Below are positions 4,979 to 12,940 of a stretch of 43,279 nt of DNA, in pieces. Both the position numbers and the translations under genes were made by a program. Below the pieces are notes generated by a model. That model worked only from the letters and a program-made list of their open reading frames with translations. It did not search any database and was not told the origin of the DNA. The DNA is from Thalassotalea sp. (GTDB taxonomy: Bacteria; Pseudomonadota; Gammaproteobacteria; Enterobacterales; Alteromonadaceae), in NCBI GenBank assembly GCA_029249355.1, contig JAQWHO010000406.1:1-43279 (forward strand), in the 5' to 3' direction. Positions within the stretch are counted from its first letter, which is position 1; each line of letters starts with the position of its first letter.

Positions 4979-5299
4979 ATGAGTAACAAAATTTTTGCTG
5001 ATTTACAACGCATGGTTATGATCGCTAATGAAGAGTTTTTACTTGATAATCCTCAAAATAAAACAGAAGTAGGTTTACAAACTTCAATGAGAGATGAAGG
5101 ATTTATGGCTGATGGTGTGGTATTAGACCAACACTCAACATCAAAAAGAATCGTTTTTCATATGCATGACAATCACCCTGGTGTTGTCGGTTATGCTGCA
5201 GGTTTTTCAAACCGTGAAACTAAAACGGAAATGAAGTCTATTGAACTAGAAAAAGTCACCATTGCTTTTATTAAAGAACAAATGAAAAATCATTTTTAA
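4979..5299 (+). CDS. Hypothetical protein, 106 aa
   Basis: ORF preceded by a purine-rich stretch (aataggaagacaATG); family not recognised. Confidence 0.65.
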   Translation: MSNKIFADLQRMVMIANEEFLLDNPQNKTEVGLQTSMRDEGFMADGVVLDQHSTSKRIVFHMHDNHPGVVGYAAGFSNRETKTEMKSIELEKVTIAFIKEQMKNHF

Positions 5300-5317
5300 A
5301 ATAATTAGAGTAAAGGC

Positions 5318-5347
5318 TTTACTTTTATAGAGCAGTTGCTCTATACT
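5318..5347 (+). promoter_or_regulatory. Sigma70-like promoter (TTTACT-N18-TATACT) for candidate sRNA
   Basis: -35-like TTTACT 5318-5323 and -10-like TATACT 5342-5347, 18-nt spacer; predicted +1 G at about 5354. Confidence 0.5.
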
Positions 5348-5353
5348 GCATTT

Positions 5354-5440
5354 GTTCCTAGCGAACGCCTGTTGTAATAATTTGATATTCTAGCTTTCCC
5401 CAAAGCTACACAACCGAAGATTTTATCTTCGGTTTTTTTT
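5354..5440 (+). ncRNA. Candidate intergenic small RNA (about 87 nt)
   Basis: Promoter immediately upstream; 5' GTTC-CTAGC-GAAC hairpin; internal TAGCTTT-CCCC-AAAGCTA hairpin (5391-5408); terminator AACCGAAGAT-TTT-ATCTTCGGTT + T run. No credible ORF on the + strand. Confidence 0.5.
5412..5440 (+). terminator. Rho-independent terminator
   Basis: AACCGAAGAT TTT ATCTTCGGTT followed by a T run. Confidence 0.85.
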
Positions 5441-5675
5441 GCTTCAAATTCTTTGAATGTGATTATCACTATATAGATCCGATTAATGGTGTGTGTTCGA
5501 TAAAACCTGTAGCAACCGCCAAAACCATCATCGAATAAATAGTGGCGACATCGTGACAAACTCAAACTCTATAAATTGATATATGTTACTACGCACATTG
5601 TTTGGGAGTGAACGCATATTAAAGCAGCTTATTTTAATAAGCTAAAACAAATAAGTGTTTATTGATCTTCGCCAG

Positions 5676-10862: not shown

Positions 10863-11480
10863 TTAGTCGCTAACGTCTGTAGATAACCAATCACATATAA
10901 TTTTGTCTGCTTGGTCTGCACCGGTTCTTTTCAATGAAGAAAAGGCCTGTACCCTAATGTCTGCATTTAATGACGCAAGATTCTTTTTCACTTTTAGAAC
11001 TTCGGCACTGGCTTTACCTTGAGATAATTTATCTGATTTAGTTAGTAATGCCAAAACCGGTAAATTACTTTCTGCCGCCCATTCAATTAGGTTTCTATCT
11101 AAATCCTTTAGAGGATGGCGAATATCCATCAGCACGACTAACCCCTTTAAACTTTCACGTTTTTCTAAATATTCACCTAACGCTTTTTGCCATTTCTTTT
11201 TCATTTCTAATGGTACTTTAGCAAACCCATAACCCGGCAAATCAATAAGTCGCTGAGTTTCACTCACTTCAAAAACGTTAATTAACTGTGTTCGACCTGG
11301 AGTTTTACTGATACGTGCAAGGCCTTTTTGATTCGTTAAGGTATTTAATGCACTCGATTTACCTGCATTTGAACGACCAGCAAATGCTACTTCAATGCCC
11401 GTGTCTTCAGGTAACCGACGAATATCAGGCGCACTGATAGTAAATGTAGCTTTAGAAAGATGGACAACAGGGTTAGACAA
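10863..11480 (-). CDS. engB: Ribosome biogenesis GTP-binding protein EngB/YsxC
   Basis: [14 protein letters not shown] (G1), DLPGYGFAK (G3), TKSDKL (G4). Confidence 0.96.
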
Positions 11481-11680: not shown

Positions 11681-12940
11681 ATGAAAAAAGTCTTATTTTC
11701 AATAATCATCGGATTTAGCATATTATCTCATGCTAATGCGTTTGAAGGTGATGCCAAAGCTGGTAAAACGAAAGCAGCCACATGTACTGCTTGTCATGGT
11801 GCTAACGGTATTGGAATTATGGGAGCTTATCCAAACATTGCTGGTCAGCATGCTGATTATATTGTTAAACAACTTAAAGCATTTAAAGCAAATAGCGACC
11901 GTAGTGATCCAGTAATGTCGCCAATGGCTGCTGCTTTATCTGAACAAGACATGGCTGACGTTGCTGCATATTTTGCAAGCTTTGGCCGCGATGGTTCAGC
12001 TCCAGCAGTTACGGAAGACGCTGCTAGTGATTCATCTGCAACTTCAGCAGCACCTGTAACAAGAGCACCAGCTAAAGCAGTATATATAGCTGATGCTAAA
12101 TCAGGGAAGGCCCTTTATGAACATGGCGATAAAGCTCGAGGCATTACCGCTTGTATCGACTGTCATGGTAAAGAAGGTAATAGCGATGTATTAATTAACC
12201 CTAATTTATCAGCTCAGCATCCTGAGTATATTGAGAAACAATTAAAAGCATTTAAAGCTGTAACTCGCCACAATGTAGCGATGAATCAGATTTCAGGCAA
12301 TTTATCAGATGAAGACATTGCTAATTTAGGTGCTTATTTCAAAGATCCTGCGGCTGTAGGCGAAGTAAAAGCATCGGCTGCTATGGTAGTTGTAAAGTCG
12401 TTTACTGGTGATGTTGCTGAAGGCAAAATAAAAGCAGTAACTTGTGCAGCTTGTCATGGTGAAGACGGTAATGCGTTAGTGGCTATGTACCCTTCTTTAG
12501 CCGGTCAAGGTGAAGCTTACTTAGTGAAGCAAATTACTGAATTTAAAACTGGCGTTCGACAAGACCCTGTAATGGCGGGCATGGTTGCAGCATTATCTGC
12601 TGATGATATTCAAAACATTTCGGCTTATTTTGCTTCACAAACATTAAATCCTGCAATGGCTGAAACAAGTGCTCGTGGTAAGCAGTTATATATGAGCGGC
12701 GATGCAAAAGCAGGCATAACAGCATGTGTTGCCTGTCACAGCATTAATGGTAAAGGTATGGACAAAGCTGGCTTCCCTTCTGTTGCTGGTCAAAGTCCGA
12801 CTTACTTAAAGTCTCAGCTTGAAAAATTCCGCACGAAAGCGCGTACCAATGACACCAACAGCATGATGCAAAATATTGCGATTAAATTAACCAAGAAAGA
12901 CCTTGATGCCGTAGCAAATTATATGGCGTCATTAAAATAA
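11681..12940 (+). CDS. Cytochrome c4-like protein with four CXXCH haem motifs
   Basis: Signal peptide; CTACH, CIDCH, CAACH, CVACH; divergent from engB. Confidence 0.93.
   Translation: MKKVLFSIIIGFSILSHANAFEGDAKAGKTKAATCTACHGANGIGIMGAYPNIAGQHADYIVKQLKAFKANSDRSDPVMSPMAAALSEQDMADVAAYFASFGRDGSAPAVTEDAASDSSATSAAPVTRAPAKAVYIADAKSGKALYEHGDKARGITACIDCHGKEGNSDVLINPNLSAQHPEYIEKQLKAFKAVTRHNVAMNQISGNLSDEDIANLGAYFKDPAAVGEVKASAAMVVVKSFTGDVAEGKIKAVTCAACHGEDGNALVAMYPSLAGQGEAYLVKQITEFKTGVRQDPVMAGMVAALSADDIQNISAYFASQTLNPAMAETSARGKQLYMSGDAKAGITACVACHSINGKGMDKAGFPSVAGQSPTYLKSQLEKFRTKARTNDTNSMMQNIAIKLTKKDLDAVANYMASLK

Follow-up and report, generated by a model that had tools for sequence, protein, structure and literature searches.

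The window, a stretch of 43,279 nucleotides from a Thalassotalea genome, contains at 5318-5440 a real intergenic gene which runs from promoter to terminator and is predicted to be expressed as a small RNA (sRNA) of approximately 87 nt. Its features and those of its surroundings are given in Table 1. The promoter, +1 G, hairpins and terminator which a preliminary description had placed here were all recovered, in the sequence itself, by promoter and terminator scanning and by folding. The -35 and -10 elements are separated by 18 nt. Taken alone the promoter is near chance, ie 11 sites were found in 2 kb where 8.3 are expected by shuffling. The fold of the 87-nt transcript was better than all but one of 200 shuffles (z = -3.9). 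The overlapping antisense ORF had been called spurious, and that judgement was borne out: it has no match in Pfam, and in 12 copies of the region no antisense frame is open across it, the longest stop-free run being 49 codons. Upstream, the ORF at 4979-5299 ends close to the sRNA gene. Downstream lies engB, the marker on that side of the locus which in relatives holds spf and a second sRNA, here 5.4 kb from the sRNA. A search of the genome contigs with the neighbouring RlpA-like protein gave no useful relatives.

Table 1. Features at and around the sRNA gene (positions in the window)
Feature	Position	Strand	Basis and remarks
Operator-like site 1, TAGAGTAAAGGCTTTA, consensus TAGAGTn4ACTTTA	5306..5321		Overlaps -35
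-35 element, TTTACT	5318..5323	+	Promoter scan; CTTTAC in 34/36 scored copies
Operator-like site 2, TAGAGCAGTTGCTCTA, consensus TAGAGTn4ACTCTA	5328..5343		Between -35 and -10
Antisense ORF	5341-5565	-	Overlaps sRNA gene; looks spurious
-10 element, TATACT	5342..5347	+	Promoter scan; TATAAT/TATACT in 34/36 scored copies
sRNA transcript, type A, ~87 nt	5354..5440	+	+1 G at 5354 predicted; folding, BLASTN, alignment, covariance model
5' hairpin, GUUC-CUAGC-GAAC	5354..5366	+	Compensatory forms in relatives
Single-stranded stretch, CCUGUUGUAAUAAUUU	5368..5383	+	Conserved; the fold leaves it unpaired
C-rich loop hairpin, UAGCUUU-CCCC-AAAGCUA, proposed seed	5391..5408	+	Fold, alignment, wider-family forms
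Intrinsic terminator, U tail	5412..5440	+	Stem AACCGAAGAT-TTT-ATCTTCGGTT at 5412-5434, then T
engB (yihA), GTPase	10863..11480	-	Pfam MMR_HSR1; PDB EngB chains, E 3e-83; adjoins many type A copies
c-type cytochrome, cytochrome c4-like, adjoins engB	11681..12940	+	Pfam; gene order as in relatives

Conservation and structure of the RNA

The decisive evidence against a chance arrangement is conservation, as judged by comparison of sequences. Of 99 relatives searched by BLASTN with 5300-5440, 26 had a match at E <= 0.01, in many cases at two places; for species and genera of the host family other than the window's own, values ranged from 8e-65 to 5e-23, and the matches cover promoter and transcript. 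The DNA directly upstream of this unit does not align between copies, and therefore it is promoter and transcript together on which selection acts. An unannotated sRNA gene with its own promoter and terminator was what the preliminary description had proposed, and it is this unit, promoter included, that is conserved. A covariance model located the family in 92 of 299 genomes and in 20 of the 52 genera of the host family, mostly as two copies per genome. Three tandem copies occur in one genome of the genus g2, and in this genus two or three copies of the window's type (type A, see below) are spaced approximately 260-600 nt apart (G179:C2:83720-84334).

No Rfam family matched the window at gathering thresholds, and at E<10 only chance-level matches were returned; the best plus-strand score at the site, to MicF (RF00033), was 25 bits against a gathering threshold of 79 and is itself at chance level. 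Scans of the corresponding loci in relatives gave Spot 42 itself and otherwise no match. The earlier failure to recognise a known sRNA family is thus matched by the Rfam scan of the window. The family, which is absent from Rfam 15, is new but of a known kind of sRNA, and an unusual evolutionary swap probably marks its history. A literature search, which did not reach subscription papers, found no publication naming it. Many copies have a weakly conserved TGCCTGAAATTT after the terminator T run, which also follows Spot 42 in several genera.

The 5' hairpin and the terminator covary strongly. The former is found in relatives as AUUCC/GGAAU, GCUC/GAGC, GUCUC/GAGAC, GUCCU/AGGAC and CAUCAA/UUGAUG, and in the terminator stem compensatory changes occur at seven of the nine pairs in 33 copies. 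Within the single-stranded stretch, GUUGUA is invariant in the alignment; the stretch is a possible second seed or Hfq site.

The hairpin with the C-rich loop had been described as a CCCC tetraloop on a 7-bp stem. The conserved feature is an unpaired C-rich loop of 7-8 nt, UUUCCCCA or UUUCCUCA according to type, and the majority of copies show either UAGCU-UUCCCCAU-AGCUA or a UUCCUCAU loop. The C-only tetraloop is confined to the window's genus and its near neighbours, so that the exposed C-rich loop of the preliminary description stands, but its tetraloop on a 7-bp stem is not conserved. Compensatory change in this hairpin, which had been offered as a check, is seen in part. The stem is almost invariant among the close copies, and its structure there is therefore unproven by covariation. 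In the wider family, however, it varies with pairing kept (UAGC/GCUA, AAGC/GCUU and AUAGC/GCUAU), and further paired forms, UUAGCUU/AAGCUAA and AAAAGCU/AGCUUUU, are found outside the two types described next.

Two paralogues and their operators

The host genome contains two copies of the gene. The window copy is of type A, with loop UUUCCCCA; the other, of type B, with loop UUUCCUCA, is on the minus strand of another contig, which also carries polA, and lies directly behind that gene (G000:C25:10836-10925). The two types separate cleanly, both when 38 copies are aligned and when 55 distinct copies are tabulated. Their bodies are nearly the same, and the loop is CCUC in type B as against CCCC in type A, a change which suggests overlapping yet distinct sets of targets.

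Upstream, type A copies have two operator-like sites, TAGAGTn4ACTTTA near -46 and TAGAGTn4ACTCTA near -24, have no HexR-like box, and in many cases have engB nearby. Type B copies have the box TGTAATTnAATTACA, situated nearly always at -56 to -60, and many also have the -24/-25 site. All 24 scored copies with a CCCC loop lacked the HexR-like box (at least three mismatches) and had site 1 (0-2 mismatches). Most of the 31 copies with a CCUC loop had the box with two mismatches or fewer, nearly all at -56 to -60, and polA was upstream in most of the stretches examined. The box of the host type B copy, TGTAATTTAATTACA, has zero mismatches. TGTAATTnAATTACA equals the HexR consensus of Vibrio parahaemolyticus, TGTAATTAAATTACA (PMC11906056), where HexR bound upstream of a promoter is regarded as an activator.

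With few exceptions, type A copies have site 1 between -45 and -48. Site 2 is at about -24 in type A and about -25 in type B, and the same motif occurs upstream of coxB, the gene for subunit II of the aa3 cytochrome oxidase. In 13 of the 15 scored genomes with type A or B the coxB reference point is preceded, at a distance of approximately 320-347 nt, by a match to TAGAGTn4ACTCTA at 11-12 of the 12 positions, a level reached in 0.1% of shuffles; the match is missing in the four genomes outside the clade which holds these copies. In ten genomes TAGAGTNNNNACTYTA was found 21 times, against 4 for the reversed control. About 50 nt beyond the coxB-upstream operator there is a conserved, FNR-box-like TTGACCTAGATCAA. 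Several genomes also have a second, half-like site 64 nt upstream at the coxB locus.

One regulator probably acts on both the type A operators and the aa3 cytochrome oxidase operon. At the sRNA the operator sites overlap the core promoter, and repression would therefore be expected there; the cox operator is upstream of the probable promoter, and hence activation is possible. A LysR gene beside aceA was tested as a candidate for the regulator and found no support: in one genome (G030) operators are nearby, a situation which is not conserved in others. There the operator lies between the isocitrate lyase gene and the divergent LysR gene, and is found again about 200 nt before malate synthase G, likewise without conservation in other genomes.

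Probable descent and proposed mode of action

As described for E. coli and Aliivibrio (PMC3295665), Spot 42 (spf) has polA and engB as its flanking genes, both in the host family and in the order at large. In relatives the full order is polA-Spot 42-second sRNA-engB, and most copies of the window family in relatives adjoin polA or engB. The second sRNA was found between Spot 42 and engB in families f6 and f15 as well as in three genomes of the host family. Its promoter element, TTTAGAGYAAAnACTTYA, has the same geometry as that of type A, and the AGAGYAAnnACTTYA form of site 1 precedes it in other families; its body is CCUGUUGAU ... AUAGCUUCUCCCC ... GCUAU followed by a terminator. Of 248 genomes searched for the promoter element in combination with the loop pattern, 19 gave a match, all of them in families f1, f6 or f15; the reversed control gave none. 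Type A likewise has AGAGYAAnnACTTYA, a C-rich loop hairpin, a CCG-type terminator and a place upstream of engB, with the loop CUUUCCCC in the window as against CUUCUCCCC in the second sRNA. Because promoter operator and hairpin layout are in common, type A is most likely an ortholog or descendant of the second sRNA and not of Spot 42.

It is unlikely that the second sRNA and the two window types share the promoter element alone and are unrelated in body. The covariance model built here gives no strong score on the wider second sRNAs, the right hairpin arms align poorly, and family f10 combines the promoter element with a different body. Against this, the order of elements is common to both: a 5' hairpin, CCUGUUGAU or CCUGUUGUA, a hairpin with (AU)AGCYUCUCCCC or UAGCUUUCCCC, and a CCG-type terminator. 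In f10, TTAGAGTAATTACTTTAA and then TATAAT lie between Spot 42 and engB, before a body which is quite different. Alteromonas-like genera have Spot 42 and yet another second sRNA before engB, of about 60 nt, with a -35 of TGAACT, GTGTGTTTTCTCTCAGT and a short C-rich terminator hairpin; it occupies the position of VSsrna24, which is considered below.

We therefore regard the window gene, with a probability of about 0.75, as type A of a two-member family of base-pairing sRNAs derived from the second sRNA, with a sigma-70 promoter, a cox-linked regulator and action in trans, its type B partner standing in the slot of Spot 42. The sigma-70 promoter, under the two TAGAGTn4ACTYTA operators, would give an RNA of about 87 nt made up of the 5' hairpin, the unpaired UGUUGUAAUAAUUU stretch, the hairpin with the C-rich loop and a Rho-independent terminator with its U tail. 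The loop would pair in trans with G-rich ribosome-binding sites of metabolic or respiratory mRNAs and so lower their translation, the proposed partners being GGGGAAAG-like sites for type A and GAGGAAAG-like sites for type B. Hfq probably assists this pairing; the RNA has the layout of the Hfq-dependent class, ie its own promoter, a Rho-independent terminator, a long U tail and an unpaired seed. Together the pair would read two signals, the carbon state through HexR (type B) and that of the cox-linked regulator (type A).

Pairing with G-rich Shine-Dalgarno regions appears to be the best mechanism for an RNA of this design. Eight genomes were searched upstream of ATG for a 9-nt stretch exactly complementary to the loop. 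Matches were few, with no gene common to the genomes; the sole plausible match at the start of an identifiable gene, one resembling tryptophan 2,3-dioxygenase, came from a single genome. Both coxB and aceA were rejected as targets, as duplex folding with them was no better than with shuffles.

An RNA that titrates a protein, in the manner of the CsrA or Hfq sponges, and does not base-pair is very unlikely. The two near-identical copies per genome, and the three in tandem in one g2 genome, do recall multi-copy sponge RNAs. However, the transcript at 5354-5440 has no GGA motif, the conserved loop is C-rich and unpaired, and the conserved stretches fit a seed and a terminator. The layout is that of a base-pairing sRNA: the gene is transcribed from a promoter of its own and ends in a terminator followed by a U tail, and the RNA is free of GGA and has U/A-rich and C-rich stretches which are unpaired.

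The Spot 42 position and known systems

Spot 42 is the textbook sRNA of carbon metabolism. In the polA tree all genomes with type B, together with those having a single type A copy, fall in one clade (support 100/99), which is without Spot 42. Among 299 genomes none has both a strong type A or B match and a Spot 42 match; the two apparent exceptions, G147 and G149, score only marginally with one of the two models. Upstream of Spot 42 in the host family a TGTAATTnAATTACA-like box is present at -56 to -60, with 0-2 mismatches in 19 of 47 upstream regions and 0-4 mismatches in 34 of 47, and shuffles reach two or fewer in 0.3%. Type B thus has the box of Spot 42, at the same distance (-58) and beside the same neighbour, polA. 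A HexR-like palindrome at -56 to -60 of Spot 42 was seen at polA-engB loci of many genera, and weaker TGAAAnnnAnTTACA forms stand at that position in several other families of the order.

The shared box suggests that in the host family HexR may control Spot 42 as well as type B. On the simplest reading, the second sRNA was copied and the copy took over from the Spot 42 transcript, behind the upstream region of the latter. It seems rather more probable than otherwise that Spot 42 was swapped in place for a copy of its neighbour with the control input kept. The outcome would be two near-identical sRNAs which differ in their loops, HexR governing one and the cox-linked regulator the other.

The polA-engB neighbourhood common to Spot 42 and both window types, the upstream box and distance common to Spot 42 and type B, and the mutual exclusion at strong scores in the 299 genomes could also be taken to mean that the window sRNA is a strongly diverged Spot 42, which we hold to be highly improbable. 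In the three genomes of the host family (G174, G044 and G047) and the families f6 and f15, Spot 42 stands beside a second sRNA with the promoter and loop of the window, and this coexistence in relatives led us to reject the identity. Membership of RF00021 was taken as a covariance model score above 80 bits; with a cut-off of E<10 this model still found nothing over 5250-5650, where the window sRNA lies, and at E<=0.001 it found nothing in the whole host genome. The Spot 42 head GTAGGGTACAGAGG is missing from the window sRNA, and the 5' region GTAGGGTACAGAGGTAAGATGTTCTATCTTTC, present in the Spot 42 of related genera, occurs neither in the window sRNA nor in the family alignment.

It is scarcely credible that the element is a cis-acting part of a neighbouring gene, be it leader, attenuator or terminator. 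Although its terminator is strong and the upstream ORF is at a short distance, it has its own conserved promoter, and the flanking genes differ between copies, engB being oppositely oriented where present.

The clade without Spot 42, with another sRNA behind the same box, offers a natural experiment on the retention of input versus RNA, and the two copies make up a defined sRNA system of marine bacteria which can be tested. It also gives two leads on control, the HexR-like box upstream of Spot 42 and the TAGAGTn4ACTCTA operator in common with the cytochrome oxidase operon.

Among known systems, Csr/Rsm sponge RNAs have several GGA motifs in loops, whereas the window transcript has none. RoxS/RsaE and FsrA of Firmicutes use exposed C-rich regions to pair with central-metabolism mRNAs (PMC8216469), a mechanism like that proposed here; phylum and genes are unrelated, and an analogy is drawn without a claim of homology. 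VSsrna24 of Aliivibrio and Vibrio (Hansen et al. 2012), of about 60 nt and reported to be limited to Vibrionaceae, is located 262 nt downstream of spf, with engB on its other side, and is repressed by glucose (PMC3295665). Its position is that of the second sRNA, and the two are likened by place. Spot 42 (RF00021) is similar in setting: like both types it is a short sigma-70 sRNA with a terminator at the polA-engB locus, and like type B it has, in the host family, a HexR-like box at -58, but its body differs from that of the window sRNA, and type A is preceded by other operators.
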